The notes under the pieces were generated by a model. That model made no database searches. It worked only from the letters and a program-made list of their open reading frames with translations, and was not told the origin of the DNA. A stretch of 49,816 nucleotides of DNA from Flavobacteriaceae bacterium. GTDB lineage: Bacteria; Bacteroidota; Bacteroidia; Flavobacteriales; Weeksellaceae. Every line of letters starts with the position of its first letter. Position 1 is the first letter of the stretch. A program made the position numbers and the translations under genes. The stretch spans positions 1-49,816 of the forward strand of contig JAUMXI010000009.1 in NCBI GenBank assembly GCA_030529185.1. Reading direction: 5' to 3'. Shown here piece after piece: positions 1-48,555 of the stretch.

Positions 1-687
1 TTATTGTTTTTTTTCCTTTCCTCCAAAATATTGAAGGCTAAGCCCTCCTTCTGTAAATACTGCAGGGTCTTGAGACATTCCTCTTAAAGTAATCTTATCA
101 CCTTTATTTAAATAATGAACTTTGGTTATAGCGTGGTTCAAATGGGTGGTATTACCAGTAATATAGCCTGAAGTAGAATGGATAATATCTGTTTCGCCTC
201 TGTAGATGTATGTAGCCGCTAATCTGTTTTCACTTCTATTGCTCGGGGTGATTTTATAGGTTAAATACGCCGTCACATAATAGAAGCCTGGCAATACTAT
301 TGTAAAACCATCGTGCGAAGGAATAGCATACTTGTTTAATTGTAAGGAGTGTTCGCTAAAAGTCACTTTTGCAGGGTTGTCTATTCCCGCAGTTGTTGTT
401 CTGTCGCTTTTTAAGAAACCTGCTTCTTGTGGGATAAAAGTTTCTTCTATTTTTTTCCATTCTGGGCTTTTGCCTTCCCCGCGAGACATGAGAAAATACC
501 CATCCTTTCCTTCTGTAGCTTTTGGCTCTGAGGCAAGGGTATTGTCCCCAAGAAACAAGGATTTGGTAATCTGTAAATTTCCATTAATGTGGAGGTTTGC
601 TTTAGGAGTCTTTGTATTGATTCCTACATTTTGTGCAAATCCACTGCCCCATAATAATATAAAGGCTAATAAGATTTGTTTTTTCAT
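1..687 (-). CDS. Secreted VGINT-motif protein, C1q/TNF-like C-terminus (hypothetical)
   Basis: A 228-residue protein with a clear signal peptide (MKKQ, then a hydrophobic stretch ending ...GFAQ), followed at once by VGINTKTPKANLHI. This mature N-terminal motif is common in exported Bacteroidota proteins and resembles the start of tail-fibre or adhesin-like proteins. The C-terminal half (residues about 95-222) alternates hydrophobic strands and glycines (GFYYVTAYLTY ... KGDKITLRG), the pattern of a C1q/TNF-type jelly roll; the fold is my inference. The stop codon lies on the first three bases of the window, so the gene is complete. A protein of the same design is encoded at 5631-6389. The role is probably at the cell surface or extracellular, but ligand and function are unknown. 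No good promoter is visible immediately upstream. Confidence 0.75.
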   Translation of the reverse strand: MKKQILLAFILLWGSGFAQNVGINTKTPKANLHINGNLQITKSLFLGDNTLASEPKATEGKDGYFLMSRGEGKSPEWKKIEETFIPQEAGFLKSDRTTTAGIDNPAKVTFSEHSLQLNKYAIPSHDGFTIVLPGFYYVTAYLTYKITPSNRSENRLAATYIYRGETDIIHSTSGYITGNTTHLNHAITKVHYLNKGDKITLRGMSQDPAVFTEGGLSLQYFGGKEKKQ

Positions 688-5630: not shown

Positions 5631-6389
5631 ATGAGAAAAATACCTTTACTTTTTTGGGGGTTGGGTTTGTCTATGAGCCTAAACGCCCAAGTGGGGATTA
5701 ATACGGAAACTCCCGGAGCTGCTTTAGATGTAAAATCCAAAGACAATGATGGTAATAAGGTGCTGAGATTTTCCACCAAACCCAATGAAATTGGAGTCGC
5801 TGAAAAGTTCGTCTTTTTTGTAGGAAAAGAAGTAGCTGGAGGCTATGACCTGAGGCGAATCACTTTGCAGGAAATTGTAAAATCTTTATCGGTAGAGATA
5901 CCCTCTTTGAGGCGAATTGCAATCACGAATACAAGAGGACAGCTTTTTTCAATACAGGGAAATTATCCCGTGAAGGCGGATAAGTTGATTTTTAACTCCA
6001 GCGAAGAGGATTTTGCTCAGACTCCAGATGGAGGGGTAAAGATAAAAAAAGCAGGGGCTTATGAGGTATCTTCTTGGGTAGGGTTTAAGGTATTGAGTAT
6101 TTATGAGGGGGATATTATCATCTCTTTGGCAAAGAAGTCTAAAGGTCAAACGAAATATACCAATTTTAAAAGAGCGGTTCTTTCTCGCTCTAATAACAGA
6201 GGGGTTTATGATCAAGGTAATGGCGTGGGTGCATCTTTTTCTTTTATAGAAAATTTTCAAAAAGATGACGAGCTTATTCTACAAGTAAATATTGTAACCT
6301 CTCCTGCTGTGGATACTATGCCTGGCAGTGTTAATCTTAGTGTTACTAGAGTAGATAAAGACTCTACGGTAGTAGCAGTAGGGCAATAA
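5631..6389 (+). CDS. Secreted VGINT-motif protein, C1q/TNF-like C-terminus (hypothetical)
   Basis: A 252-residue exported protein. The signal peptide MRKIPLLFWGLGLSMSLNAQ is followed directly by VGINTETPGAALDV, the same mature N-terminus type as the protein at 1-687. The middle holds a short segment (YDLRRITLQEIVKSL), and residues about 135-250 have the strand pattern GAYEVSSWVGF ... FQKDDELILQVN seen in C1q/TNF-like jelly rolls. The design match with the first gene suggests paralogues, though sequence identity outside the N-terminus is low. Probably surface-located or secreted; no T9SS C-terminal domain is evident. It has its own promoter and terminator, so it is a single-gene unit. Confidence 0.75.
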   Translation: MRKIPLLFWGLGLSMSLNAQVGINTETPGAALDVKSKDNDGNKVLRFSTKPNEIGVAEKFVFFVGKEVAGGYDLRRITLQEIVKSLSVEIPSLRRIAITNTRGQLFSIQGNYPVKADKLIFNSSEEDFAQTPDGGVKIKKAGAYEVSSWVGFKVLSIYEGDIIISLAKKSKGQTKYTNFKRAVLSRSNNRGVYDQGNGVGASFSFIENFQKDDELILQVNIVTSPAVDTMPGSVNLSVTRVDKDSTVVAVGQ

Positions 6390-6569: not shown

Positions 6570-7316
6570 ATGGGCGATAAAGTCGTATTGTTATACCACG
6601 AAGTGGCAGATAAAGCTACGGATTCTGGTTTTCAAAACAAGGATAATTTTCCTTATATCCATAGTGTGGCACAGTTTGAGAGAGATTTGAATGTGGTTTT
6701 AGAGCAAAAAGAAAAAGCCCCTGCAGAAGTGGTATTTAGTTTTGATGATGGTGGGGTGAGTAATCTTCGTTCAGCGGAAATGCTTCATAACGCAGGGCAG
6801 GTGGCGTATTTTTTTATCACGACTTCAAAAATTGGTTCTTCTTCTCATTTTTTAAATAAAGAAGAGATAAGGAAAATTCGTAATCAAGGGCATATTGTTG
6901 GCTCACATTCTCATACTCACCCTATGATTTTCAAGAATTTGTCTTATGCTCAAATGTTGGAAGAATGGAAAGTTTCTAAAAGTATTTTAGAAGAGGTTTT
7001 AAAGGAAGAAATTACAACTTGTAGTATTCCTGGTGGAGATAGCGACTCAAAAACTTATGAGAGTGCTTTGGAGTCTGGTTTTTTACGGGTTTTTGATTCA
7101 GAGCCAATCATTAAAAGAAGAATGTTGGGAGAAATGGAGATTTGGGGGCGTATCAGTATTAAAAATTCTGTTTCGGAACGAGAGTTAAGAAAAATATTAG
7201 CTTTGGAGTCTCTCGGTTCACTTCAACGAAGAAGAAAGATAAAAAAGTGGATTAAAGCAATGATTTTCCCTTTGCATAATTATTTACAAAACAGAAAAAA
7301 TGAAGTCTCCTATTAA
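6570..7316 (+). CDS. NodB-family polysaccharide deacetylase, apparently cytoplasmic
   Basis: 248 residues with the NodB homology motifs: FDDG at 58-61 (catalytic base Asp59, metal ligand Asp60), HSHTH at 113-117 (metal histidines His113 and His117), and CSIPGGD further on as a divergent third motif. The family removes N- or O-acyl groups from sugars with a metal ion. There is no signal peptide or membrane segment, so it likely acts in the cytoplasm on a precursor or lipid-linked sugar rather than on exported polymer. It is the first gene of the polysaccharide operon and overlaps the formyltransferase-like gene by 17 bases, which suggests coupled translation. ArnD, which removes formyl from lipid-linked Ara4N, belongs to the same superfamily. 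The substrate cannot be read from sequence. Confidence 0.85.
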   Translation: MGDKVVLLYHEVADKATDSGFQNKDNFPYIHSVAQFERDLNVVLEQKEKAPAEVVFSFDDGGVSNLRSAEMLHNAGQVAYFFITTSKIGSSSHFLNKEEIRKIRNQGHIVGSHSHTHPMIFKNLSYAQMLEEWKVSKSILEEVLKEEITTCSIPGGDSDSKTYESALESGFLRVFDSEPIIKRRMLGEMEIWGRISIKNSVSERELRKILALESLGSLQRRRKIKKWIKAMIFPLHNYLQNRKNEVSY

Positions 7317-8112
7317 GCAAAGAGTGGTGTGTCTGTTTGGCACAGGAATAATTTTTGATAAAACCTTGAGCGTACTTCTTGATAATGATATTGAGGTGGT
7401 GGGGGTTTGCAATGCTAATAAGCATACAAAGAAAGTGGATTTTTCTTATTTGAAAATTGCTGTGAAAAAGTATGGTTATTGGAAGGTGTTTTTACAGATT
7501 TTGGGTCGATTTCTTTATAAGATTTTGAATGCAAGGAAGGATAAAGAAATTTTTAATCAAATTTATAATGATTTTGAAATTCAGGAAATTATAAAAACAA
7601 AAGGAGGTGGAATTTCTTATCATTCTACGACGGATTATGCTCATCCAGAGACTATTTCGTGGTTGAAAGAACAAAAAGCAGATATGTTTATTATTCATAC
7701 GGGATATTGGGTTGGTAAAAAAGTAAGAAACATAGTTGATGGAAAATGTTTGGGAGGTCATCCAGGGATTACCCCGACGTATAGAGGGGTGCATTCGCCT
7801 TTTTGGGCAGTGTATAATGATGATTGGGATAATATTGGATACAGTGTGTTTTGGGTAGATGGAGGAGTAGATACGGGAGATATTTTGGCACAAGGAAGAT
7901 TAAATCCAGAGAAAAACGATAGTTTTTTTACAATGAGCTGGAAAGGAATGGTTGGGATAGCAGAGCAACAAGCTAAAATCATAAAAAAGATTGAAAATGG
8001 AGAGGATTTGACGGTGAGGAAAGTGGGAGAAGTGAGTGAAGATACAAATTATACGCACCCTACAATTTTCCAGTATTTAAAATATATTTTTAAACAAAAT
8101 AGATTAAGATAA
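7300..8112 (+). CDS. Formyltransferase-domain protein with altered active site
   Basis: 270 residues with a formyltransferase N-terminal fold (methionyl-tRNA/GAR/sugar formyltransferase superfamily). The core is HPGITPTYRG (His154) followed by VDTGDIL with the catalytic-type Asp191. The usual triad is Asn-x-His ... Asp; here the Asn position is Gly152 (LGGHP), so the chemistry may differ or be impaired. It is too short and too divergent for the housekeeping Fmt, and its place inside a polysaccharide operon favours N-formylation of an amino sugar using N10-formyl-THF. It overlaps the deacetylase before it and shares one base (TAATG) with the SGNH gene after it. No aminotransferase for making an amino sugar is in the window. 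Confidence 0.75.
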   Translation: MKSPIKQRVVCLFGTGIIFDKTLSVLLDNDIEVVGVCNANKHTKKVDFSYLKIAVKKYGYWKVFLQILGRFLYKILNARKDKEIFNQIYNDFEIQEIIKTKGGGISYHSTTDYAHPETISWLKEQKADMFIIHTGYWVGKKVRNIVDGKCLGGHPGITPTYRGVHSPFWAVYNDDWDNIGYSVFWVDGGVDTGDILAQGRLNPEKNDSFFTMSWKGMVGIAEQQAKIIKKIENGEDLTVRKVGEVSEDTNYTHPTIFQYLKYIFKQNRLR

Positions 8113-8882
8113 TGAGAAGGATATTTTGGGTCATTATGGGCTTATTACTATCAGTATTATTTTATACGACTTATGATAAGTTTTCTATGGCTAAAGAATT
8201 TGATTATTATGAAGTAAAACATAAAGAAGATGGTATGCTTAAAATAGGAGTTGTGGGAGATAGCTGGACTTCTCGTTATCCGTTGGATTCTCTTTTAGAG
8301 AAAGGTTTGCGAGGAGAGGGAATAGAGGCGAAAGTTATAGGTGCGAGTTGTCCAGGAGGAACTTCAAAAGTAATTTATGAAAATTTATTTAAGCCAAAAG
8401 GAGAGGAATGTTCATCAAGGTTTGTTGTTGAGAGTTCACCGAATTATTGCATTGTGATAGCAGGAGTTAATGATAGTTTTAGAGGATTTGGTAAGGAGTT
8501 TTATGCAGGACATATGCTAAAAATCGTTGAAGCTTTGATGCACTATCAGATCAAACCCATTGTTTTTGAGATACCTAATTTTGGGATAGAGAGAAGCCAG
8601 ATTAGTAGACAGAAATTGAGTATATATAGAGATGATATTATATACACTATAAAAGGGGAAGACTTTAAGGATATAGAAAGTTATAGAATAGAGTTTAGAA
8701 AATTACTGAAAAGTAGAGGCTTGTTGGATAAGGTTATTTTAATCAATGATGAAAATCAAAATATTGATTATGATCAACATAAGGAAATGTATAGCGATGC
8801 TCTTCATTTGAATGAAAAAGGTTATGAAATATTGCTTGATATTATTGTAAAGAAATTAAAAGAAGAATTACAAACAAAATAG
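8112..8882 (+). CDS. SGNH/GDSL-type hydrolase, membrane-anchored
   Basis: 256 residues with an N-terminal hydrophobic anchor or uncleaved signal (about residues 3-19). The SGNH blocks are visible: GDSW (Ser51), an early conserved Gly, GVND (Asn120), and DALHL (Asp229, His232). Such enzymes are esterases, often removing or adding O-acetyl groups on polysaccharides. The anchor puts the catalytic part in the periplasm. Its start codon overlaps the formyltransferase-like stop codon, and a GT2 gene follows after five bases, so it belongs to the operon. Likely role: O-acyl editing of the exopolysaccharide; substrate unknown. Confidence 0.75.
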   Translation: MRRIFWVIMGLLLSVLFYTTYDKFSMAKEFDYYEVKHKEDGMLKIGVVGDSWTSRYPLDSLLEKGLRGEGIEAKVIGASCPGGTSKVIYENLFKPKGEECSSRFVVESSPNYCIVIAGVNDSFRGFGKEFYAGHMLKIVEALMHYQIKPIVFEIPNFGIERSQISRQKLSIYRDDIIYTIKGEDFKDIESYRIEFRKLLKSRGLLDKVILINDENQNIDYDQHKEMYSDALHLNEKGYEILLDIIVKKLKEELQTK

Positions 8883-8887
8883 TTTTG

Positions 8888-9877
8888 ATGAAAAAGGTAT
8901 CCATTATAGTTCCTGTTTATAATGTGGAGAATTACTTGGCAAAGTGTTTAGACTCTTTGGTTAATCAAACTTTGCAGGATATTGAGATTTTGGTTATCAA
9001 TGATGGAAGTCGGGATAATTCTCAAAGTATAATAGAAGAATTTCAAGCGAAATTTCCTCTGAAAATCCGTGCTTTTCAGAAAGAAAACGGAGGTTTGAGT
9101 GATGCGAGAAATTTTGGTTTGGATAGGGCGTGTGGCGAGTTTATTGGTTTTGTAGATAGTGATGACTATGTTTCTGAAACGATGTTTGAGGAAATGTATG
9201 CTTTGGCTAAAAAATATCGGGCGGAAATGGTGATTTGTAATCTTCAAAAGGTAGATGAGAAGGGGAATATTACCCAAAAATTAACTCAAATTCCTAATAT
9301 GCCGGAGAAAATCAATTTGGAAGAGCATTTTTCGGTGTTTTCAGATTTGAGTTATTTTGCTTGTAATAAGTTGTTTAAAAGAGAACTTTTTGAAAATAAA
9401 AGATTTAAGAAAGGAGTTCATTTTGAAGATATTCAGCTCATACCACAGCTTTTGTTGGAGTGTAATGTTTTGGCTCATACGCAAAATTATCATTATCAAT
9501 ATTTAGAGCGAACGGATTCTATTACGAAAACCCATACAGAGAAGGGGTTGCATATTTTAAGAGCGGTAGAAGAGGTGGAAGAAGCTTTGAAAAAGTCAAA
9601 ATACGCCGATAGGAAGGAAGAATTAGAAAACTTTTGGATATTTGAAGGAGTTTATTCTTTTTTGGCGTATTTGGCGTATGTGAAAGATGATGGGCTTTAT
9701 CAGAAAATGTCTTCTGAGTTTAAAAGTATTATTGCAAAAAAAAACATATCTATTTCAAAAATATTGAAATATAAAAGATTTAATCAAAATTATCTATTAT
9801 CTTTGTCTTTGAAAAAACAAATATATTATTTGTTGTATTTTTTTGGTCAGGAATGGCTTTTAAGAAAAATACTTTAA
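8888..9877 (+). CDS. Glycosyltransferase family 2
   Basis: 329 residues with a GT-A fold: VSIIVPVYNVENYL at the N-terminus, INDGSRDNS for nucleotide binding, GLSDARNFG, and the metal motif FVDSDDYV. It transfers a sugar from a nucleotide donor during repeat-unit assembly on the cytoplasmic face of the membrane; the C-terminal part has no strong membrane span. The ATG at 8888 is preferred to the TTG one codon earlier. A nine-A run at 9736-9744 inside the gene is a slippage-prone site. It is the only glycosyltransferase of this type in the operon, so the repeat unit may be short, or other enzymes come from elsewhere. Confidence 0.9.
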   Translation: MKKVSIIVPVYNVENYLAKCLDSLVNQTLQDIEILVINDGSRDNSQSIIEEFQAKFPLKIRAFQKENGGLSDARNFGLDRACGEFIGFVDSDDYVSETMFEEMYALAKKYRAEMVICNLQKVDEKGNITQKLTQIPNMPEKINLEEHFSVFSDLSYFACNKLFKRELFENKRFKKGVHFEDIQLIPQLLLECNVLAHTQNYHYQYLERTDSITKTHTEKGLHILRAVEEVEEALKKSKYADRKEELENFWIFEGVYSFLAYLAYVKDDGLYQKMSSEFKSIIAKKNISISKILKYKRFNQNYLLSLSLKKQIYYLLYFFGQEWLLRKIL

Positions 9878-9887
9878 AATAAAACGC

Positions 9888-10991
9888 ATGATAGTATTTC
9901 TACATCCTGTTTTTACGGCAGTTTTTATAGCTCTTATGGTGTATAGCTTTTTAGAGGTGAATCACGATAGAAGCTATAAGTCTGCTTGGTGGGTGGTGGG
10001 TTTTATGATATTTCTATTAGGTTTTAGAGATTGGGCAGGAGCAGATTATGGTGTGTATGCGAGGTTATTTGAGTATTACGGAAAGATGCCATATGCTTTT
10101 GTTTTTAATAAAGACATTGTAGAAATGGAATGGCTTTATGTGTTGTTGGGTAAGGTAATATACGATGCGAAACTTCCTTTTTTTATTTATACTTTTATTA
10201 TAGCCTTGATAGCCCTGATTTCTAAATACATGACTTTTGAGAAGGTTGTGTATTATCCTGCGATGGCAATGCTATTGTATATGATTCCTACTTATTTTAT
10301 TGCAGATGGTGGGCAGATGAGGCAAGGGGTTGCTATGGGGCTTTTAATGTTGTCTTTCTTGTATATAAGAGAGAGACGATTGTTGATGTTCCTTTTCGTA
10401 ATATATATGGCCATGGGATTTCATAAATCGGCGTTTGTTTTTATTTTCGCTTATTGGATAGCCATAATTCCATTAAACCCTACAAGGATATTGCTGTTGA
10501 TTTTAATCAGTGTTATTTTGTCTCCGTTTCAGGTGTATAGCTATATATCTTTGTTAGACTCTATTGCACCGGAAGAGGTGTATGAGGGGTTTCAGTCCTA
10601 TGAAACAATAGAAGAGGCGAATAAAAGTAGTGTCAAGTTGTATGATTTAATAAGTATTTTTTACACCTATTTTTTGGTAGTTTATAATAAGGAAGCTTGT
10701 GAAAGGATTCCGTATTATGAGTATATGAGAAATATAAGCGTTGTAGGGATTTGCATGTATTTTATATTTAGAGGGAGTCCTATTTTTTCTTCGAGATTAT
10801 CCATAAATTATTTTATATTTATGATAATGGTTCTGCCTAGTATTGTTGCGGCAGTTCAGAAGCCTTCTTTAAAGAAAGGTTTGCATCTTGTAATTATGGG
10901 ATTTATAGTATTTTATTATTTTGTATTTGCTTATATGCAAGGTGTTAAATTGGGATATACTTGGGAGGGATATGGAAATTATTTTTGGTAA
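9888..10991 (+). CDS. EpsG/Wzy-like polysaccharide polymerase, multi-spanning membrane protein
   Basis: 367 residues, mostly hydrophobic with about ten predicted membrane spans. The motif FRDWAGADYGVYARLFEYYG after the second span resembles the R-x-x-G-x-DY pattern of EpsG-family and Wzy-type polymerases. It probably joins lipid-linked repeat units in the periplasm. It starts ten bases after the GT2 gene and is followed six bases later by the initiating phosphosugar transferase gene. Wzy-type proteins diverge strongly, so the class is supported but the linkage formed is unknown. No Wzx flippase gene is found in the operon. Confidence 0.8.
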   Translation: MIVFLHPVFTAVFIALMVYSFLEVNHDRSYKSAWWVVGFMIFLLGFRDWAGADYGVYARLFEYYGKMPYAFVFNKDIVEMEWLYVLLGKVIYDAKLPFFIYTFIIALIALISKYMTFEKVVYYPAMAMLLYMIPTYFIADGGQMRQGVAMGLLMLSFLYIRERRLLMFLFVIYMAMGFHKSAFVFIFAYWIAIIPLNPTRILLLILISVILSPFQVYSYISLLDSIAPEEVYEGFQSYETIEEANKSSVKLYDLISIFYTYFLVVYNKEACERIPYYEYMRNISVVGICMYFIFRGSPIFSSRLSINYFIFMIMVLPSIVAAVQKPSLKKGLHLVIMGFIVFYYFVFAYMQGVKLGYTWEGYGNYFW

Positions 10992-10997
10992 AAAGAA

Positions 10998-12101
10998 ATG
11001 AGTGAGTTAGAATTATTTTTTAAATCAAAAGAGTTTTTTGAGGCTAAATTGTTCCTTGTTTTTGTGTTATCAGGAGTGATAAGTTATCTTACTATTCCTA
11101 TAATTTTGAAAATTTCTAAAAGGAAGAATTTATTGGATATTCCCAAGGAGAGAAGTTCTCATGATAGACATGTGTCTAATCTAGGGGGTGTGGCTTTGTT
11201 TTATAGTATAGGCATTTGTTCTCCTATTTTTGCATACGAGTTATTTGAGAGTTATCAATTTTTATTTCCTGCTTTGGTGATTCTGTTGTATGTGGGGGTA
11301 ATGGATGATATTATGGAAGTAAAGCCTTATGCTAAACTCATTGCACAGATTCTTGTCGCTGTTTTGATGGTTATAGGCTCTGATGTCAGAATCAAGAGTT
11401 TTTCGGGGATTTTCGGTATTTACGAGCTGAATTATTGGGTGAGTGTAGTGATGAGTATATTTACTTTTATTATTATGATTAATGCTTTTAACTTAATAGA
11501 CGGAATTGATGGTCTTGCGGGGGTGTTTTCTGTTATTTGTTGTATGTTTTTCGGATTGAGTTATTATCGTTTAGGAGAGCAGAATTATCCTATGGTGGTG
11601 CTTTGTGTTGTGATTATAGGAGCTTTACTGAGTTTTCTCTATTATAATTTATCAGAAGTAAAATCACGGAAGATTTTTATGGGAGATACAGGCTCTATGT
11701 CGATTGGTTTTTTATTGGTGTTTACAGCCTTTTATTTTATGGATATATTTGCAGTGAAAGAAAATGAAGTTTCCTTTTATTATCTTAGCTCAGCACCTGT
11801 TATTGCATTTTCAGTTTTGATAGTTCCTATTATGGATACATTGAGCGTTATTATTATAAGATTGGTCAATAAGCGTTCTCCAATGAAAGCGGATAGGAAT
11901 CATATTCATCATAGATTATTAAAATTAGGATTGACGCATAAAAAGGCAACATTTTATATTGCGGTATATTATGTTTTTACGATAATGATTACCTATTTTT
12001 TGAGGCATTTGGAGGTTAATTTGCTCTTTTTGATAGTCTTGTGTTTAGGGTTTTTAGGTGTATTTTCACCGAATATTATTATGAAGTATAATAAAAAATA
12101 G
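10998..12101 (+). CDS. MraY/WecA-family undecaprenyl-phosphate sugar-1-phosphate transferase
   Basis: 367 residues with about ten membrane spans and the family motifs: MDDIMEV on a cytoplasmic loop, NAFNLIDGIDGLAG, MGDTGSM, and the terminal HIHHRLLKLG box typical of WecA-like rather than MraY enzymes. It loads a HexNAc-1-phosphate onto undecaprenyl phosphate and so starts the polysaccharide repeat unit at the inner membrane. Its position between the Wzy-like and Wza-like genes supports a role in this exopolysaccharide. Sugar specificity (GlcNAc or another HexNAc) cannot be decided from sequence alone. Confidence 0.9.
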   Translation: MSELELFFKSKEFFEAKLFLVFVLSGVISYLTIPIILKISKRKNLLDIPKERSSHDRHVSNLGGVALFYSIGICSPIFAYELFESYQFLFPALVILLYVGVMDDIMEVKPYAKLIAQILVAVLMVIGSDVRIKSFSGIFGIYELNYWVSVVMSIFTFIIMINAFNLIDGIDGLAGVFSVICCMFFGLSYYRLGEQNYPMVVLCVVIIGALLSFLYYNLSEVKSRKIFMGDTGSMSIGFLLVFTAFYFMDIFAVKENEVSFYYLSSAPVIAFSVLIVPIMDTLSVIIIRLVNKRSPMKADRNHIHHRLLKLGLTHKKATFYIAVYYVFTIMITYFLRHLEVNLLFLIVLCLGFLGVFSPNIIMKYNKK

Positions 12102-12133
12102 TATTTTTGTAAAATAATTGAAATAAAGAATCA

Positions 12134-12991
12134 ATGAAAAATAATACCTTTTTTGCATTATTGTTGATGTTAATTCTTTCTTCTTGCATTGGAACAAAGG
12201 ATATAAAATATCTACAAGCAAATGAAAACTTAGAAATTAACTCCGAAGGTTTAGTGTCTTATAATATACCTACTTATAGGGTGACGAGAAATGATATATT
12301 AACTTTAAATATCGTGACCACGCCAAAAGGAGATGCCGCTCAGTTTTATTCGGCATATAACACATCAAGCGGAAGAAACTCAAATGTAAATCATAATACA
12401 GGTGGCAATATTTCAGGGGGTAATATTTCAGGGGGAAATGGTAATTTTTATTTTAATGGATTGAAAGTAGATTCTAAGGGAGATATTTATGTTTTTGGTA
12501 TTGGTTTTGTGAAGGCAGAGGGGAGAACCTTGGAAGATATTTCTAATGAAATTCAAACCAAAGTGAATAAAAATTTTGTAGAAGGAAAATCAGAAGTAAG
12601 GCTCAATATAGATGGTATAAGATACTATGTGCTGGGAGATATAGAAAGTGTAGGAATAACAGGTGAAAAAGTGGTGTATAAAAACACCCTTAGTATTACT
12701 GAGGCTCTTGCACTTAATGGAGGATTAAATAGAACAGTAGATAGAAAAAACATTCGCCTCCACAGAAAATTTCCTGAAGGAATAAAAATAGTGACTTTGG
12801 ATTTAACTCGTGAGGATATTATGAACTCTCCATATTATTGGGTTCAAAATGGAGATGAGTTTTATCTCAATACAAGAAGTAGAAACCTGCACGGATTTGG
12901 AAAAGAGCCCTTGCAGACACTTACAACAGGGGTTTCTGTGGTCACAACAGCATTATCTATTTATTTATTACTTACAAGAACTTTTAAATGA
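12134..12991 (+). CDS. Wza/BexD-like polysaccharide export lipoprotein
   Basis: 285 residues. The lipoprotein signal ends LILSSC with the lipidated cysteine at 18. A polysaccharide biosynthesis/export domain (YRVTRNDILTLNI ... GDIYVFGIGFVKAEGRTLEDI) is followed by a SLBB-like segment (YYVLGDIESVG ... SITEALALNGGL). This is the outer-membrane export channel partner of Wzc. A Gly/Asn/Ser-rich insert in the middle (about residues 84-103) contains two 15-bp DNA repeats encoding NISGG. The C-terminus has a hydrophobic segment (VSVVTTALSIYLLL) that could be a membrane helix. It overlaps wzc by four bases (ATGA), so the two are translated together. Confidence 0.92.
   Translation: MKNNTFFALLLMLILSSCIGTKDIKYLQANENLEINSEGLVSYNIPTYRVTRNDILTLNIVTTPKGDAAQFYSAYNTSSGRNSNVNHNTGGNISGGNISGGNGNFYFNGLKVDSKGDIYVFGIGFVKAEGRTLEDISNEIQTKVNKNFVEGKSEVRLNIDGIRYYVLGDIESVGITGEKVVYKNTLSITEALALNGGLNRTVDRKNIRLHRKFPEGIKIVTLDLTREDIMNSPYYWVQNGDEFYLNTRSRNLHGFGKEPLQTLTTGVSVVTTALSIYLLLTRTFK
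12404..12433 (+). repeat. Two 15-bp tandem repeats inside the export lipoprotein gene
   Basis: Two consecutive copies of GG-N-AATATTTCAGGG encode NISGG NISGG within a Gly/Asn-rich linker. The unit is a multiple of three, so copy-number change keeps the frame and only alters linker length. Confidence 0.8.
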
Positions 12992-15435
12992 TACCGACAA
13001 GCAATAAACAACCAGAAGTCAGCGTGAGGGAAAAAGAAAAAATGGGTTCCTTTGACTTATTTAGCATAGAAAATTTTATACGCAGAGTTATTCGAAATTG
13101 GTATTGGTTTGTAGCATTAGGAATCATAGGCTATGTTATTTCTTATGTGTATAATAGATACTATGTTCAGAGAATATATGCCTCAAACTTATCGTTAAGT
13201 GTTTCTAATAATACGGCGAGTTATTTCACGCCCAATCAGTCTATTAACTTTATATGGGGGCAAGGAGGCAATCAAGATGGGGTCTTTCTAAAAAAAATGC
13301 TTCTATCTCGTAGTCATAATGAGTATTTAGTACAAAAATTAAACCTATTTGTAGATTATTCCACAAAAGGTATAGTGAAGAAAACTCATTTGGATAAGCA
13401 TGATTCTCCTGTGTTTATAGAGGTGGATAAAAATTATTTACAGCAAGTAAATTACCCTATCACCCTACTTCCGCAAGGCAATGGTAAATATGAAGTAGTG
13501 CTACCCGAAGACGGACACTCTACCAGCCTATATAATTATCGTACTGAAGCCTTTGAGGTTATTTCTAAAGAATATAATCGTCCTGCTAATAAGGTCGTAT
13601 CCCTAAATCAATGGTATCAAACACCTAATTTAAGATTTAGATTAATTGGCAACCCCAATGGAAGTGGAGATTTGGAGAATATCATCATAACCCTTAAAAC
13701 CATTAACGAAACGGTACAAGAGATAGTGTCTAATATCTCAATAGAATTTGATAAAGAATTGTCTTCCGTGATGATCATCACAAAAAGAGGTTATAATTTA
13801 AAAGGTACGGTGAATTTTCTTAACCAAACTGTAGGAGAGCTTATTGAAAAAAGAAAAGAAGACCAAAGCTTAGTAGATAGAAATACGCTAAAATATATTA
13901 ATAACAACCTTGATATTATCCGAAGAAAATTAGATTCAAGTGCAGCAAATCTAAATGTGTTGAAAATCAATAAAAAACTTTTTGATGTAAAAGGTAAAGA
14001 TGTTTCATTATTAAAGAAAATAGAAGAGCTAGAAGCTAAAAAAGCAGAAATAATATCTAAACAAAATTCATTAAATGTTATTAGAAACTCTGTGAATAAA
14101 AATTTGGATAACATGATTAATCCAAATATCGCAGGAATAGAGGATGGAGGATTTAACGCTTCAATATCAGAATTGAAAGCACTTTATGAAAAAAGAATAG
14201 AGTTAGCATCTATCTACACGCCTAATTCAGAGCCAATGAGAGAAATCAATAGGCTAATTAGAGAAGCAAGAGGTAATTCTTTCGGAAAATTGAATGAGTA
14301 TTCGGCTTCTTTTTTAAGAGAATTGGCAAAAATCAACCAAGATATTGCAGAAGTAGAAAGGGAGCTAACTACATTTCCTCAAGACCAAAGGGCTTATATG
14401 GATGTGGATAGAGAGTATAAAATTATAGAATCAACTTATAACGCATTACTCTCAAAACAAGCCGAAACTCAGATTCGTCTCGCTACAAGCAAATCTGATC
14501 TAACGATCATAGACCCAGCGAAGAATTTAGGGCAAGGGCCTATAGGACCAAATATCAATCTATTAAAATATGGAATCATATTTGTTTTAATGTGTATCCC
14601 ACTGCTGTATATCTTCATAGGAGAGCTATTGGATACCAAGATTAGATCAATTAAAGAACTTGTAAGTGCAGTGAAAATCCCGTTGCTAGGGGTAATAGGT
14701 AAAAGCAGTCATGAAAATAATCTTACTGTTTTAGAACAGCCAAAATCCTCTATATCCGAATCGTTTAGAGGGATTCGTGCGAATCTTAGGTTTTTATACA
14801 AAGAAGATGGTAAAAGCAAAGTGTTGCTAGTGACCTCTTCCGTTGGAGGCGAAGGCAAAACCTATTCTTCCATTAATATTGCTTCCGTGTTAGGACTAAG
14901 TGGGAAGAAAACTATTCTATTAGGAATGGATTTAAGAAAACCAAAAATCTTTGGAGATTTCAAAATGAATAATAAATATGGAATTTCTAACTACCTTTCA
15001 GGAGATGTAGAAATATCACAAATCATCAATAAAACTACCATTCCTACTTTAGATGTGGCAACTTCTGGTCCCATCCCACCAAATCCCTCAGAATTATTAA
15101 TGAGTGATAAAAATAAGGAGTTTATTGAGGAATTGAAAAAGGAATATGATTTTATTGTGATTGACTCTCCGCCAGTAGGACTTGTAGCAGATTCATTTGA
15201 ATTGATGAAATTGTCCGATGCGAATATTTATGTCGTAAGACACGAATATACCGAAAAGTATATGCTAAAAATGATAGCTGAAAAATACCATTCGGGAGAA
15301 GTGAGTAGCATAGGAATTATATATAACGATTATATTGCTAAACAAGGCTATGGTTACTTTGAAGAAGATAAAAACTATCAAGAGCCTTTCTTGATTAGGC
15401 TGAGGAATAAAGTAAAAGCAATATTTAGAAAATAG
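12988..15435 (+). CDS. Wzc-like chain-length determinant / BY-kinase
   Basis: 815 residues. An N-terminal Wzz domain has a first membrane span at about residues 35-52. A long periplasmic coiled coil and a second span (YGIIFVLMCIPLLYIFIG) follow, then a cytoplasmic bacterial tyrosine kinase domain. Kinase motifs: Walker A GGEGKT (Lys624), Walker A' GMDLRKP (Asp648), Walker B VIDSPP (Asp726). The last 45 residues hold a tyrosine cluster (YNDYIAKQGYGYFEEDKNY) for autophosphorylation. It controls chain length and drives export together with the Wza-like protein encoded just upstream. It is the last gene of the operon, followed by a strong terminator. No dedicated low-molecular-weight tyrosine phosphatase gene is seen nearby. 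Confidence 0.94.
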   Translation: MIPTSNKQPEVSVREKEKMGSFDLFSIENFIRRVIRNWYWFVALGIIGYVISYVYNRYYVQRIYASNLSLSVSNNTASYFTPNQSINFIWGQGGNQDGVFLKKMLLSRSHNEYLVQKLNLFVDYSTKGIVKKTHLDKHDSPVFIEVDKNYLQQVNYPITLLPQGNGKYEVVLPEDGHSTSLYNYRTEAFEVISKEYNRPANKVVSLNQWYQTPNLRFRLIGNPNGSGDLENIIITLKTINETVQEIVSNISIEFDKELSSVMIITKRGYNLKGTVNFLNQTVGELIEKRKEDQSLVDRNTLKYINNNLDIIRRKLDSSAANLNVLKINKKLFDVKGKDVSLLKKIEELEAKKAEIISKQNSLNVIRNSVNKNLDNMINPNIAGIEDGGFNASISELKALYEKRIELASIYTPNSEPMREINRLIREARGNSFGKLNEYSASFLRELAKINQDIAEVERELTTFPQDQRAYMDVDREYKIIESTYNALLSKQAETQIRLATSKSDLTIIDPAKNLGQGPIGPNINLLKYGIIFVLMCIPLLYIFIGELLDTKIRSIKELVSAVKIPLLGVIGKSSHENNLTVLEQPKSSISESFRGIRANLRFLYKEDGKSKVLLVTSSVGGEGKTYSSINIASVLGLSGKKTILLGMDLRKPKIFGDFKMNNKYGISNYLSGDVEISQIINKTTIPTLDVATSGPIPPNPSELLMSDKNKEFIEELKKEYDFIVIDSPPVGLVADSFELMKLSDANIYVVRHEYTEKYMLKMIAEKYHSGEVSSIGIIYNDYIAKQGYGYFEEDKNYQEPFLIRLRNKVKAIFRK

Positions 15436-32867: not shown

Positions 32868-33947
32868 TTATATTTCGCTTAAAATTTTTTTATATATATT
32901 GAGATAGTCATTTAGCATTTCATTTTTGCTAAATTTACTTGCCCATTTTTTGATTTTTTCGCTCATTATTTTCTGATTTTCAGTGTAAAAACTCATTTTA
33001 TCTTGAAAGGTTTTTGCCATATTTTCAGGATCTAGAGTTTCAAAATAAAATGCAACTTCTCCTCCTATTTCGGGCAAACTCGTGAAAGTGCTTAAAAAAA
33101 CAGGTTTTCCGAAAGCCATTGCTTCAATGGGAGGAATTCCAAACCCCTCTGCAATAGATGGATGGCACATCGCTTGGCAATGCTGAATAAGGGCATATTT
33201 TTCTTCCTCGGAAATGTTGGATAAAAAATGAACTCTGTTTTCTAATTTTAATTGATTGACAATTTGCTTAGTTTCAGCTTCATAATTCTTATTTTGGGCA
33301 GAACTTACCAAAACCAAATCTTCTTGAATATAAGGTAACATCTGAATTAATTTTTTCTGATTTTTTTTATCAAATAAAACTCCAATATTCAAAATAAACC
33401 TTTTATTCTCTAAAAATTGGTATTTTCCCAAATCATATTTTTTATTCTCTGGTAAATCTACCCCATTATAAACTACAAAAATTTCTTTGACTTTCTCTAA
33501 ATTTAAAAGATGTTGATTTTTCAAAACTTCCTCCTTTACAAAGTGCGAAATACAAACAAGATAATCAGCATTTTTCAAGTTTTGATTCACTTTGTTTAGC
33601 ATTTTTTTCTTTTTTGCATCACTCAGATTTTCGTGTAAGAAGTTCAAATCGTGGAGAGTAAGAAGTTTTTTAGCCTTTTTATAATCTCTGTGGAAATAAG
33701 ACGAAAGCTGATGACTTGCGTGAATCAAATCAAATTTTGGGCTGAAATTCTCAAAAAATTTGTGCCAAAATTTCCAGTCAATAAGACGGATTGACGGATT
33801 TATTTTTTGTAATTCTTCCTTAGGTCCGAAAAAAGAAAAATCAAACTCTTCATTTTCTTGAAGTTCTTTTCCTAAATTTCGAAAGACATTGGCTATCCCT
33901 GAATTTGGATAACGGAGCCGTTCTAAATCTATGAGTATTTTTGTCAT
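32868..33947 (-). CDS. Glycosyltransferase, GT4-like (last gene of cysS operon)
   Basis: 359 residues, GT-B fold. The C-terminal domain shows NIGVLFDKKNQKKL, CHPSIAEGFGIPPIEAMAFGKPV and LPEIGGEVAFYF, the donor-binding features of GT4 enzymes; the catalytic Glu lies in the EGFGIPPIEAM motif. N-terminal LRYPNSGIANVFRN binds the acceptor. It is a retaining transferase of unknown sugar specificity in the cytoplasm. Its start overlaps the previous gene by four bases (ATGA). The closest function in sequence type is mannosyl- or hexosyl-transfer. Confidence 0.88.
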   Translation of the reverse strand: MTKILIDLERLRYPNSGIANVFRNLGKELQENEEFDFSFFGPKEELQKINPSIRLIDWKFWHKFFENFSPKFDLIHASHQLSSYFHRDYKKAKKLLTLHDLNFLHENLSDAKKKKMLNKVNQNLKNADYLVCISHFVKEEVLKNQHLLNLEKVKEIFVVYNGVDLPENKKYDLGKYQFLENKRFILNIGVLFDKKNQKKLIQMLPYIQEDLVLVSSAQNKNYEAETKQIVNQLKLENRVHFLSNISEEEKYALIQHCQAMCHPSIAEGFGIPPIEAMAFGKPVFLSTFTSLPEIGGEVAFYFETLDPENMAKTFQDKMSFYTENQKIMSEKIKKWASKFSKNEMLNDYLNIYKKILSEI

Positions 33948-35086
33948 TTGAAAATTGTATTTAAAATTTCCTGTTCTTTTTCTGGTGTATGATTTTGAAG
34001 AAAATATTTTTTAGATTCATCCTTTTTTGAGCGATACAATTTGTTGTCATTCAATAATTTATTTATGACTTCTGCAAATTGTTTTCCATCATCACAAACA
34101 ATACAACCATTTTCCGTTTTGTTGATAAGCCCATCAATACCTCTTCTGTGAGTAATTACGGGAAGAGCATACGATAAAGCTTCTAATACTTTGATTTTGA
34201 CCCCAGTTCCCGAAAGCATTGGGCAAATCACCACTTTTGCATTATGATAAATTTCTTCCAAGGAATCAACCAATCCGTGTTTTACAAAATTAGGATGGTC
34301 TGGAATTTCAGTACAAACTTTTCCGATAATATGCACTTTAATTCCTGACAAATAAGGTATTACTTCTTTAGCAAACCATTGAATTCCAGTAATGTTGTGG
34401 GGATTATTACTTCCTACAAAAATAACATCATACAGATATTTATCTTTGATTTGAGTTTCATTGTAGGGAAAAGAAATGGGAATGAGCGTAATTTTTTTAT
34501 CGGTAAATTGTCCAAAAATATATTCCTCTTCAACGGAGTAAGTCCAAATTTCATCAAAATTGTTTAGAATTTGCATTTCACTTTGGAAGAATTTACCAAT
34601 TTTATCTCTTTTATTTCGCTTTTGTCCTGTAATAAAATCGTGGGTATCAAGTATTAGATGTGTTTTGTATTTGATGTTTTTTATCAAATTTCCCCAACTG
34701 GCATAGCTGATGATGATTTTATCATATTTTTTAGCATTAATGATTTTTGCGAATCTTTTGTTTAGAAAAGGATTGGAAATATCCACACTGATGCCTCTCA
34801 AAAGTTTAGGAATAAAGTTTGGGATTTTATAAAAGAGCCAATGCAGGAGAAAATTTCTCTTATCATTTTTTCTTTCAAGAAGAATTAAATTTATATTGGG
34901 AAATATTTTCTTAAATTTTTGTATGTTTTCAGGAAACCAGTCGCCCCAATCACTAAGTGAAATAAAATCTACTTCGGCATTTTGCATTTCATTGAAATAA
35001 AAAAGCATTTGTTTAAAACGGGTAATATTGCCTGCAGCTCCCGCTACGGGGCAATCTGGAACGAAATACAATATTTTCTGTTTCAT
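33944..35086 (-). CDS. Glycosyltransferase, GT4-like (GT-B fold)
   Basis: 380 residues. The N-terminus KILYFVPDCPVAGAAGNITR resembles other GT-B nucleotide-sugar enzymes. The C-terminal half has VIFVGSNNPHNITGIQWF, then HIIGKVC and the donor motif CPMLSGTGVKIKVLEALSYALPVI, seen in the Glyco_trans_1_4 group, where a Lys (VKIK) replaces the usual Glu pattern. Probably a hexosyl or deoxyhexosyl transferase for a surface glycan. The stop/start junction with the upstream gene shares one base (TAATG), and it overlaps the following gene by four bases. Specificity unknown. Confidence 0.85.
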   Translation of the reverse strand: MKQKILYFVPDCPVAGAAGNITRFKQMLFYFNEMQNAEVDFISLSDWGDWFPENIQKFKKIFPNINLILLERKNDKRNFLLHWLFYKIPNFIPKLLRGISVDISNPFLNKRFAKIINAKKYDKIIISYASWGNLIKNIKYKTHLILDTHDFITGQKRNKRDKIGKFFQSEMQILNNFDEIWTYSVEEEYIFGQFTDKKITLIPISFPYNETQIKDKYLYDVIFVGSNNPHNITGIQWFAKEVIPYLSGIKVHIIGKVCTEIPDHPNFVKHGLVDSLEEIYHNAKVVICPMLSGTGVKIKVLEALSYALPVITHRRGIDGLINKTENGCIVCDDGKQFAEVINKLLNDNKLYRSKKDESKKYFLQNHTPEKEQEILNTIFK

Positions 35087-36339
35087 TATTTTTCACTTTT
35101 GTTTAGCACTTCATCAAGTAAGGTTTTCCACTGTTGTTTTATATGTTCTGGGGCAAATTGCTTCACGAAGTTTCTACTAGCATTTCCCATTTTTTGCCGA
35201 AGATTAGAAGAACTCATTAATTTTTCAAGATATTCGGCAATTTCATTTTCATTCTTTGCCAAATAACCATTTTCATTATGTATGATTAGTTGATCGACAC
35301 CACTGCAACCCTCCAAGCCAATCACTGGCAAGCCAACTGCCATTGCTTCTACTAATGCAAGTGGAAATCCTTCATATTTGCTTGGAAATACAAAAATATC
35401 TGAATTTTTGAGTTTTTCTATTGGTTCAGATATAAATCCGTTGAGAAAAACCCTTGATTCTAAATTTAAATTTTGTATAAGTTTTTCAATTTGGTCTTTA
35501 TCACGCCCTACACCCCAGAAATGTAAATTCCATTGAGGAAATTTATTACAAACTTTTTTAAAACTACGAATTAAAACATCTTGTTGTTTGTGGCTTAATA
35601 CCAAAGAGCCTACATGAGAAATAATATAGCTTTCTTTTTCAGAGGAATGAGTAGCGATGCTGTTGTCCTCAATTTGAGGAATAAAATTTCCGATGTGAAA
35701 ACATTTTCCTTGAAAAGAAGAAGGGAGAAAATCTTTGTAATTTTCAAACAAAACTTGAATGGCACTGAGTTTTTGATATGAATTTTCCAAATGTCGCATA
35801 TCAATTGCCGTTCTATCCCAAAGAACATCAGTGTAGTCGTAGTCTGGTCGCCCATTAGTGGAATTAATTATAGGAATATTATAATCATTTTCAAAAGTGA
35901 TTTCCAATAACGATCCGATAGACATTGTAATGATGGCGTCTGGTTTTGATGAATTGATGAATTTTCGCCAAGCCAAAGCCCTTTGTCGTAAGTTGAATTC
36001 ATAAACTTTATCTTGTCCCCCCGCTTTTTTTGTAATTTTTTTGTTGATGTATATATCGTAATTTTTTTTCAATTTGTGTTTTATCCATAGAATAGGATTT
36101 TTTCCTGTATAGTTCTGAATTTTACGAAATTGGATTTGTTTAATGTCATCAGAATAAATATTGATGAGTTTTACTTTTTCGCTGAGCGGATAAACTTCCT
36201 TTCCTATGATATTTTCATTGGTGGCAACTTCTACTTCATAGCCTAAATCACAAAAATGATTGGCTAAAAAAGAACAAACTTTTTCCGTGCCTCCGTGTCC
36301 GTTAATGAATGAATTATGCTGGATTAGTAAAATTTTCAT
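35086..36339 (-). CDS. Glycosyltransferase, GT4-like (GT-B fold)
   Basis: 417 residues. N-terminal HNSFINGHGGTEKVCSFLA is the acceptor-side glycine loop; the C-terminal donor motif is FVFPSKYEGFPLALVEAMAVG, followed by GLEGCSGVDQLI, both typical of GT4. A charged region near residues 85-110 (KKNYDIYINKKITKKAGG) is an insertion relative to short family members. It is a retaining cytoplasmic transferase working on a membrane-linked acceptor. The gene starts ten bases after the GT2 stop and shares one base with the next gene. Confidence 0.9.
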   Translation of the reverse strand: MKILLIQHNSFINGHGGTEKVCSFLANHFCDLGYEVEVATNENIIGKEVYPLSEKVKLINIYSDDIKQIQFRKIQNYTGKNPILWIKHKLKKNYDIYINKKITKKAGGQDKVYEFNLRQRALAWRKFINSSKPDAIITMSIGSLLEITFENDYNIPIINSTNGRPDYDYTDVLWDRTAIDMRHLENSYQKLSAIQVLFENYKDFLPSSFQGKCFHIGNFIPQIEDNSIATHSSEKESYIISHVGSLVLSHKQQDVLIRSFKKVCNKFPQWNLHFWGVGRDKDQIEKLIQNLNLESRVFLNGFISEPIEKLKNSDIFVFPSKYEGFPLALVEAMAVGLPVIGLEGCSGVDQLIIHNENGYLAKNENEIAEYLEKLMSSSNLRQKMGNASRNFVKQFAPEHIKQQWKTLLDEVLNKSEK

Positions 36340-36349
36340 AAGTAAAATA

Positions 36350-37369
36350 TTATTTTAAAAGCAAGTTTAGTTTTTTTCTTTGCTCCCTGCGAATGGTATT
36401 GAATGGGATAAATTTCGTGAAAAATAATTGAACTTTAACCCAAAAATTATGTGTTTTAGAATATTTTTGATAAAATTCATCAAATTCAATGCTGTTATTT
36501 GTCTTTATGAAATATCTAAAATCTCGACTAAGAATTTCCTTTTGTGTTTCACAAAGGTGTAGGTTTTTGTTAAAAAAAGTTTTAATAAGTCTAAAAACAA
36601 ATTCTTTTTGCTCCCTATTCAAAGGCATGTCCAAATATCGCAATTGGTACGGCTCGTGCTGTAAAAATAAAGCTAAATGTACATTTTTTTGTTTAAATAA
36701 ATCATATTTTATATAGAATTTTTCCAAGATTTCAAACCATTTAGGGATTTGAGTTAAAACATCATCTGTATTTTTCTTTATTATTTGAGTGTTTTGATTA
36801 TGGTGCTTTCTATAATGGTAAATTCCTAATGGGTTAAATCCAACTTTTTCCGTTAATGCTAATAATTGATGCGAAAAAAGCCCATCTTCACAGGGTTGAA
36901 TATTTTTAGGAAATCTAATGTCAGAATATTTTTTTAAAAAAGAGTGCTTTAAGAACATTGCACAAGTAGGAAGAGCATAAATATTAGGAAATCTTTGTTT
37001 GAAATATTCACCAACTACTACAAGGTCGTAATTTTCTTTTGTAGCAATTTCAATACAAGTTTTAATAAAATCTTTATCAATGGTGTCATCGGCATCCATA
37101 AAAAAAATATAATCGCCAGATGCTTGTAAAAGTCCGTTATTCCTTGCGATAGATACTCCCGAATTATCTTGTTGAAACAATTTAATTCTCATATCTTGTA
37201 AATATTTTTCACAAATAGAAACCGAAGAATCAGAACTTCCGTCATCTATCAAGATGAGTTCCCACTGGTTAAACGATTGATTGATAACACTCTGTATTGT
37301 GTCATCTAAAAAATCCTCTACATTATAAATGGGTATAATGATAGAAACTAAATGTTTTTCGTTTCTCAT
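36350..37369 (-). CDS. Glycosyltransferase family 2
   Basis: 339 residues. GT-A core: VSIIIPIYNVEDFL, LIDDGSSDSS, NNGLLQASGDYIFFMDADDTID (metal-binding DxD), and the later PCEDGLFSHQLL. The C-terminal 110 residues are Lys/Phe-rich and may associate with the membrane or a partner. It is an inverting nucleotide-sugar transferase of unknown specificity, third in the glycan part of the cysS operon. It lies six bases after the GT90 gene and ten bases before the next glycosyltransferase gene. Confidence 0.92.
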   Translation of the reverse strand: MRNEKHLVSIIIPIYNVEDFLDDTIQSVINQSFNQWELILIDDGSSDSSVSICEKYLQDMRIKLFQQDNSGVSIARNNGLLQASGDYIFFMDADDTIDKDFIKTCIEIATKENYDLVVVGEYFKQRFPNIYALPTCAMFLKHSFLKKYSDIRFPKNIQPCEDGLFSHQLLALTEKVGFNPLGIYHYRKHHNQNTQIIKKNTDDVLTQIPKWFEILEKFYIKYDLFKQKNVHLALFLQHEPYQLRYLDMPLNREQKEFVFRLIKTFFNKNLHLCETQKEILSRDFRYFIKTNNSIEFDEFYQKYSKTHNFWVKVQLFFTKFIPFNTIRREQRKKLNLLLK

Positions 37370-37375
37370 AGCCTG

Positions 37376-38311
37376 TTATTTTAAAAAATACCTTTCCAAA
37401 ACCAACAAACTACACAAATCTTCCATATCTTGATTGAAAAATTTCTGGCAATGCTGGTGGGCGTTTTCAATAATTTTTAAACATTTTTCAGGATTGTTGA
37501 TGTAGAACTTCAACTGCTCTTCCAAATCTGAAAAATCGGGTTTTAGCTCAATATAATGTTTTCCGCCCTCCAATTTCCCCTCCATAAACCAAGTTTCAAT
37601 CGTAGGTTTGGGCATCACGGCAATGGAGTTGGAAGACATTATCCATTTGAGATTGGTAGCGACATCATTGCCTTGCAAACTTAAAATAAATTTAAAATTC
37701 AAGTGTTCAGCGATGCTGATTTTCGGCTTTTGCCAACCTAAACTTTCAAAATTATTGGTCGTCCCTAAATCGCAAAGTGAGTGCGAAAAATATTTTTTGT
37801 AAAAATCAATTCGGTTGGTTTGATTACCATAAATTGCTCCCCTACCGATGAGTTTATTTTCTTTGGAAAGGAAATTTTTATCGTTTTTCACCCAAACAAA
37901 ATGCCGAGCTTTATCCAAATTCAACAGAATGCTATTCTGATTTTCATTGCAAATAGGACGACTTTTCACGATGGACGGCGTTTTCGGAATGTGAATGACA
38001 TCACCAAAAACAAAATCCAAAGGCAAATTTTCCTCAAAAAAACGAGCGTATTGGTAAGTATCAAAATAGTAAGCCTTCGGAGTTTTGGGCTTTTTAAGGT
38101 CTTTCACAAAAGTTTTTTGCGAAATTTTCTCTGCGTTTCCTTCACTTTGACAATAATAATTGATTCTTTGCTCAATCATTTGCAATTCAGCAGCGGAAAA
38201 TTTGGATTTCAACTGCTGAATTTTCTTTTTTGCATCAGTAAAACAAGGAAACAATAAATTCCCATACCCCCGAAGGTAAAACAAAAATTTATTCTGTTTA
38301 ATGAGATTCAT
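37376..38311 (-). CDS. Glycosyltransferase family 90 (LPS-modifying type)
   Basis: About 311 residues from MNLIKQNKFLFYLRGYG. The conserved GT90 block is visible: FGDVIHIPKTPSIVKSRPI, GRGAIYGNQTNRIDFYKKYF, ISIAEHLNFKFILSLQGNDVATNLKWIMSSNS (shown in parts), and PTIETWFMEGKLEGGKHYI. GT90 covers CAP10/Rumi-type glucosyl- and xylosyltransferases and bacterial LPS-modifying enzymes. The ATG at 38311 overlaps the cupin stop by 14 bases; an upstream ATG at 38350 would overlap 53 bases and adds a tail (MTLSDWRTITQDK) that looks like read-through of the cupin region, so the later start is chosen. The acceptor is probably a surface lipopolysaccharide or glycolipid. Confidence 0.85.
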   Translation of the reverse strand: MNLIKQNKFLFYLRGYGNLLFPCFTDAKKKIQQLKSKFSAAELQMIEQRINYYCQSEGNAEKISQKTFVKDLKKPKTPKAYYFDTYQYARFFEENLPLDFVFGDVIHIPKTPSIVKSRPICNENQNSILLNLDKARHFVWVKNDKNFLSKENKLIGRGAIYGNQTNRIDFYKKYFSHSLCDLGTTNNFESLGWQKPKISIAEHLNFKFILSLQGNDVATNLKWIMSSNSIAVMPKPTIETWFMEGKLEGGKHYIELKPDFSDLEEQLKFYINNPEKCLKIIENAHQHCQKFFNQDMEDLCSLLVLERYFLK

Positions 38312-38654
38312 CTTGTCTTGCGTAATCGTCCTCCAATCGGATAATGTCATCTTCTCCGAAATAAGTTCCCGTCTGAACTTCTATGAAAACCAAAAGCTCC
38401 GAAGTTCTGTTTTCTATTCTGTGTTTTGCTCCAAGTGGAATGAAAATGCTTTCTCCGTATTTTACGACATGTTCTTCTCCATCTAAAACCACTACTGCCT
38501 CCCCTTGAATGATAGTCCAAAATTCCTGCCTGTGGTGGTGGTATTGGTAAGATAATCTGTGCTTTGGATTTACCTCTATTCTTTTTAATTTATAGGTTGC
38601 TTCGTCTTCCAAAACATAATATTTCCCCCAAGGTCTTTCTCCTATTTCTAACAT
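38298..38654 (-). CDS. Cupin, mannose-6-phosphate isomerase type II C-terminal-like
   Basis: 118 residues of a single cupin barrel: RPWGKYYVLED, KRIEVNPKHRLSYQYHHHRQE (metal histidines), EFWTIIQGEAVVVLDGEE, and IFIPLGAKHRIEN. It matches the C-terminal isomerase domain of bifunctional GMP-mannose-1-P guanylyltransferase/isomerases but lacks the nucleotidyltransferase domain. It may make mannose-6-phosphate or handle another sugar phosphate for the glycan built by the next genes. It starts eight bases after cysS and overlaps the GT90 gene, so it is part of the same operon. Confidence 0.85.
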   Translation of the reverse strand: MLEIGERPWGKYYVLEDEATYKLKRIEVNPKHRLSYQYHHHRQEFWTIIQGEAVVVLDGEEHVVKYGESIFIPLGAKHRIENRTSELLVFIEVQTGTYFGEDDIIRLEDDYARQDESH

Positions 38655-48524: not shown

Positions 48525-48555
48525 AACTCCCCACGAAAGTGGGGAGTTTGTTTTT
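48525..48555. terminator. Terminator between aldehyde dehydrogenase and LRR genes
   Basis: Stem AACTCCCCAC / GTGGGGAGTT with a GAAA tetraloop, then TTGTTTTT. The two genes are convergent, and its edge touches the LRR stop codon. Confidence 0.9.

Follow-up and report, generated by a model that had tools for sequence, protein, structure and literature searches.

What would a deacetylase and a formyltransferase-like protein do together at the head of a polysaccharide operon? The question is raised by a locus in a window of 49,816 nucleotides (the whole stretch of DNA that was analysed), which comes from a 1.7-Mb genome that is 93% complete. The preliminary description had proposed that three coupled sugar-modifying genes may here swap, or transiently protect, the acyl group of an amino sugar. 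Three open reading frames, of 248, 270 and 256 amino acids, are confirmed. The first two overlap by 17 bases and the last two share one base (TAATG at 8110-8114), and the coordinates and Pfam matches agree with the overlaps and motifs first described. The GT2 gene that follows starts at 8885 or 8889. The genes of the locus are as follows.

6570..7316, + strand: NodB/CE4-type deacetylase of type A, without a signal peptide and predicted to be cytoplasmic (PF01522, E 1.3e-16, 61.1 bits against a cut-off of 23.1)
7300..8112, + strand: formyltransferase-fold (FT) protein of subfamily A, with a GGHPG motif and the canonical Asn missing (PF00551, E 1.2e-10, 41.8 bits against a cut-off of 26.1, residues 113-207 only)
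7300..7316, + strand: 17-base overlap of these two genes (the same holds for 61 of 68 relatives with NodB upstream)
8112..8882, + strand: membrane-anchored SGNH/GDSL hydrolase, outside the pair and associated with the GT2 gene (PF13472, E 4e-7, 31.1 bits, slightly below the cut-off of 32.9)
8885..9877, + strand: GT2 glycosyltransferase of a family-wide core polysaccharide locus (homologues at E <= 1e-50 in 265 of 296 sampled family genomes)
9888..10991, + strand: EpsG-family (Wzy-like) polymerase (PF14897, E 8.2e-40)
10998..12101, + strand: WecA-like phosphoglycosyltransferase (PF00953, E 3.3e-36; TIGR02380, E 1.4e-49, under its cut-off)
12134..12991, + strand: Wza-like export protein (PF02563, E 2.1e-7)
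12988..15435, + strand: Wzc-like tyrosine autokinase (TIGR01007, 158.5 bits, exceeding the cut-off of 108)

The locus is flanked by two surface-protein-like genes, at 1-687 (- strand) and 5631-6389 (+ strand), whose products have an N-terminal VGINTxTPxAxLxV after a signal peptide. More glycosyltransferase-like genes form a second block at 32868-38350 (- strand), and the gene at 48554-49429 (- strand) encodes a lipoprotein-like protein in which a leucine-rich (BspA-like) unit is repeated.

The conserved unit is the pair of deacetylase and FT genes, not the trio. One genome per species was scanned with an FT alignment, which gave 253 relatives; the best 80 of these were kept, duplicates were removed, and the resulting 79 FT loci were scored with profiles built for this analysis. 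In 73 of these 79 loci a NodB gene stands immediately beside the FT gene or is fused to it: immediately upstream in 68, immediately downstream in four and fused in one, a 581-aa open reading frame with a type-B NodB in a Cyclobacterium MAG (L045, 4921-6666). NodB is elsewhere in the same cluster in one further locus (L041) and was not found near FT in five, one of them at a contig end. The most common overlaps of the upstream pairs are -4, -8 and -11 bases, and since 61 of 68 such pairs overlap across phyla, the overlap of the deacetylase and FT genes is not a matter of chance. A separate Pfam scan of the upstream neighbours of FT found PF01522 in 59 of 76, and the genes downstream of the pair are mostly glycosyltransferases. 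The pair loci cover at least six phyla (Bacteroidota, Pseudomonadota, Bacillota, Campylobacterota, Planctomycetota and Acidobacteria). Among control loci, a NodB neighbour occurs in 1 of 28 other PF00551 loci of the relatives and in 0 of 15 loci of classical sugar formyltransferases (Fisher p 2e-18 and 6e-13, respectively, relatedness being ignored). The sole positive control (L013) involves another type of FT (310 aa) and another deacetylase, which lies 200 bases from it, and is kept as a counter-example. Within the family of the window FT relatives are sparse, being present at E <= 1e-15 in only 15 of 296 sampled genomes. In a plasmid collection the only matches with good coverage are a NodB-less homologue from S. 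meliloti and an unannotated one from Shinella. The S. meliloti homologue, on pSymB (L122:7947-8756), lies beside genes for a corrinoid methyltransferase and a methylene-THF reductase.

The SGNH esterase is outside this module and belongs with the neighbouring GT2 gene. Its N-terminus has one hydrophobic stretch (MRRIFWVIMGLLLSVLFYTTYDKF), and blocks I, III and V can be read from its sequence as GDSW, GVND and DALH. A phmmer search found a homologue in none of the other pair loci, and among 59 relatives the protein matched G033 only. A homologue or SGNH-like gene stands directly before GT2 without NodB-FT, as the two-enzyme module is called here for convenience, in L186, L197, L199, L206 and L214. 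The trio was accordingly rejected as a module; the coupling claimed in the preliminary description stands for the deacetylase and the FT homologue but not for the third member, and the three-gene order did not recur in the other pair loci. The best GT2 homologues in the family are 67-80% identical to that of the window. In the loci examined the order is topA, an arginase-family gene, an optional SGNH gene, GT2 and then a polymerase or WecA-like gene, and in L186, the only long stretch among them, it runs on to Wza and Wzc. The genes right before GT2 vary between an arginase-family gene, SGNH, a large membrane protein and NodB-FT (L186, L188-L216 and the window). The arrangement in the window appears to be best explained by the insertion of NodB-FT upstream of a pre-existing SGNH-GT2 operon.

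Moheibacter lacus (G009, also L035), which belongs to the same family as the window (Weeksellaceae in the tree label), carries a B-type pair at the core polysaccharide locus (L032) where the window has an A-type pair. The M. lacus pair closest to that of the window (L033) is instead a stand-alone two-gene unit outside polysaccharide loci, and such units are found again in L034 and L036. The expectation that these genes always precede Wzy, Wza and Wzc genes thus fails in Moheibacter and two relatives.

In the usual view, an N-formyl sugar arises when the product of an aminotransferase is taken up by a formyltransferase. For comparison, 15 classical sugar N-formyltransferase genes of the same class, scoring above the NF005755 cut-off, were inspected with flanks of up to 6 kb. 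A DegT-type aminotransferase gene is immediately adjacent to 14 of these 15, versus 0 of the 79 FTs of the pair family, and lies within 6 kb in 15 of 15 classical loci versus 17 of the 79-80 pair loci; Fisher tests on these counts ignore relatedness. No sugar aminotransferase (PF01041) is present among the open reading frames of the window. The idea that the whole genome is without sugar aminotransferases was rejected, as five strong DegT-family (PF01041) matches are found elsewhere in it. It thus seems to be NodB, in the aminotransferase's place, that supplies the free amine. With NodB beside FT and an aminotransferase never there, an acetyl-to-formyl swap is favoured over transient formylation of the Arn type. 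With a deacetylase as amine source the donor amino sugar need not be made elsewhere, as had been supposed at first; an aminotransferase would be needless.

The two proteins have recognizable folds. The deacetylase begins with MGDKVVLLYHEV and, as described earlier, cannot carry a signal peptide, because its ATG closely follows an in-frame stop codon (TAA GCG AAA ATG). Its type-A motifs are YHE, FDDGG, HSHTHP and SIPGG. In the alignment of six type-A proteins the metal-site residues D59, D60, H113 and H117 (FDDG, HSxxH) are invariant, while motif 3, R-x-P-Y, is absent, SIPGG standing in its place and the motif-3 Arg being gone. This deviation also occurs in IcaB/PgaB-like enzymes. The model of the protein, built from only six sequences, is of moderate confidence (pLDDT 76.7); its best PDB matches are IcaB (4wcj), PplD (6dq3) and PgaB, with a Foldseek E of 3.6e-11 for IcaB. 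Family, metal site and missing signal peptide together suggest a cytoplasmic HexNAc de-N-acetylase. The FT model (pLDDT 91.7) matches Fmt best (1fmt, Z 18.7, 211 residues, rmsd 3.5), followed by ArnA (16.6) and WbkC (15.0); a dehydrogenase domain is absent from the window FT. The family has a helical insertion of its own at residues ~45-101, conserved in both of its subfamilies. In subfamily B the motif of this insertion resembles FLKRRIKRLGxxKVxGQxLF. Being basic and hydrophobic, the insertion would be suited to touching a membrane or a lipid-linked sugar.

The window FT, L034-L037 and L041 (six in the tree) form subfamily A, a rare clade with 100/100 support on a long separating branch. These FTs go with type-A NodB, which in L041 is in the cluster but non-adjacent. 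The remaining FTs, subfamily B, go with type-B NodB (ISLDFELxWG, THTFSH, HLWWHPH). Two unlike NodB types, IcaB/PgaB-like A and DFELxWG-type B, thus partner two FT subfamilies.

These observations lead to the following model, in which we infer both the substrate and the order of the steps. The cytoplasmic NodB would strip the N-acetyl group from a HexNAc, either of the repeat unit or of the undecaprenyl-linked precursor of that unit, and the FT-fold partner would then add a formyl group from N10-formyl-tetrahydrofolate to the freed amine, so that an N-formyl sugar would replace the N-acetyl sugar in the polysaccharide without the use of an amino-sugar aminotransferase. The conserved basic and hydrophobic insertion of FT hints that the acceptor may be lipid-linked and may be the HexNAc that the WecA-like enzyme loads; from its sequence this enzyme would place HexNAc-1-P on undecaprenyl phosphate. 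That NodB-FT is a coupled two-enzyme module for an aminotransferase-free change of acetyl to formyl is a reading to which we give slightly better than even credence, and of what was first proposed for the locus, the exchange of an acyl group on an amino sugar explains the pair best. N-formylation by the FTs of subfamily B is a well-founded prediction from fold and coupling; the same activity is uncertain for the window protein. Counting against the swap are the Gly at the catalytic Asn position of the window FT together with its changes R136Y, H184F and Q216G, the closest homologues lying outside polysaccharide loci, and the FT relatives without NodB, such as the one on S. meliloti pSymB.

The swap has to be weighed against an Arn-like route, in which FT would formylate an aminotransferase-made nucleotide sugar and NodB would later deformylate the lipid-linked sugar and leave a free amine. 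Such a route is known, as ArnA formylates and the deformylase ArnD works on Und-P-Ara4FN (PMC12650200), and there too a formyltransferase and a NodB-superfamily enzyme share a glycan pathway. ArnD (8t0j) is within the fold matches of the deacetylase, ArnA within those of FT, and the DegT-family genes elsewhere in the genome also speak for it. However, the Arn pathway draws its amine from the aminotransferase ArnB and takes the formyl group off again, whereas an aminotransferase adjoins no FT of the pair family. The pair locus has no arnB/C/T context: no ArnC-type transferase, bifunctional ArnA fusion or ArnB was found around 6570-15435, and no ArnC/ArnT-type transferase is among the nearby genes of the window, the GT2 scoring best on PRK10073 and just 31.7 bits on the ArnC model against a cut-off of 529. 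The deacetylase model is IcaB/PgaB-like, closer to IcaB, PplD and PgaB (TM 0.58-0.63) than to ArnD (TM 0.43, rank 14). Given that aminotransferases are not adjacent, formylation followed by deformylation is disfavoured, and the transient protection proposed in the preliminary description is improbable.

A different doubt concerns subfamily A itself, whose FT-fold proteins may have lost formyl transfer and act as a non-catalytic partner or move another group, so that a free amine or a different acyl group would result. As judged from alignments, the catalytic Asn of the Asn-x-His ... Asp triad is Gly152 in the window FT (LGGHPGITPTYRG), which the preliminary description had not remarked on, and this position is Gly in five and Ala in one of the six members of subfamily A, versus Asn in 73 of 73 in subfamily B. 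Where subfamily B has R136, G166, Y168, H184 and Q216, subfamily A has Y, S, F, F and G; R136, H184 and Q216 are invariant or nearly so across the main subfamily, and S166, F168 and F184 stand where it is invariant. These changes and the long, fully supported branch fit a loss of activity. Against it, subfamily A keeps His154, Asp191, Asp187, Asp207 and the GITPxYRG loop as well as the tight pairing with NodB, and among the closest four its FTs are 63-67% identical versus 50-54% for their deacetylases, unlike a decaying gene. Such a loss is unlikely, though far from negligible. Because the canonical Asn is Gly152, the window protein is best called a formyltransferase-fold homologue and an unproven formyltransferase, and its formyl transfer can only be inferred. 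The broader proposition, that NodB-FT exchanges N-acetyl for N-formyl across phyla and that the active site of subfamily A works without the canonical Asn, is accordingly put forward tentatively, with somewhat less than even confidence. The genes could also be mere neighbours in a locus that collects modification genes, with adjacency but no shared mechanism; polysaccharide loci do mix such genes, and SGNH is such a neighbour here. This is very improbable in view of the adjacency or fusion in 73 of 79 loci across phyla, the conserved overlap, the one fusion, and the stand-alone two-gene units of the closest homologues outside polysaccharide loci.

The swap has partial counterparts among known systems. 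Classical sugar formyltransferases (WbkC, VioF, FdtF/QdtF, WlaRD and the N-domain of ArnA) share with the pair FTs the Formyl_trans_N fold, the H-x-G/S and D-T-G motifs and their occurrence in surface-polysaccharide loci. They differ in keeping the N-H-D triad and adjoining a sugar aminotransferase, while the window FT lacks the Asn and has a NodB partner, and the helical insertion at residues 45-101 sets the pair FTs apart. In rhizobia, an amino sugar is deacetylated by NodB in the cytoplasm, and another enzyme then puts a new acyl group on the amine. The logic of deacetylation followed by re-acylation is the same, but rhizobial NodA is an unrelated fatty-acyl transferase, whereas the second enzyme of the pair has a formyltransferase fold. 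The PNAG de-N-acetylases IcaB and PgaB, closest in fold to the window deacetylase, act outside the cytoplasm on the finished polymer; the window enzyme has no signal peptide and has a formyltransferase-type partner. In the outer core of A. baumannii LOS, deacetylases encoded in the cluster have been proposed to yield free GlcN/GalN (PMC4172580). Its Pda1 and Pda2 likewise represent a Polysacc_deac_1 gene within a glycan assembly locus, but the annotation there shows no PF00551 partner coupled to it (PMC4172580). For Helicobacter canadensis a deacetylase and a formyltransferase have been published, but they sit at separate loci. The deacetylase/FT pair is undescribed in the open-access literature searched, subscription journals and preprints being outside the scope; the folds are known, the coupling is apparently new and the chemistry is unproven.

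The C2 amine enters nucleotide sugars already acetylated, and 2-formamido sugars therefore need a de-N-acetylation step. The O6 O-antigen of P. aeruginosa contains such a sugar, the 2-formamido hexuronic acid GalNFoA (PMC11706664, PMC4773840). If the proposed swap is true, NodB-FT would account for the making of sugars of this kind and would be a second, aminotransferase-independent route to N-formyl sugars, 2-formamido sugars included, that is invisible to searches for an aminotransferase with a formyltransferase. It would also offer a two-enzyme tool for converting N-acetyl into N-formyl glycans, and subfamily A would probe the need for the catalytic Asn in the FT family. N-formyl sugars would then become predictable from sequence in many phyla.
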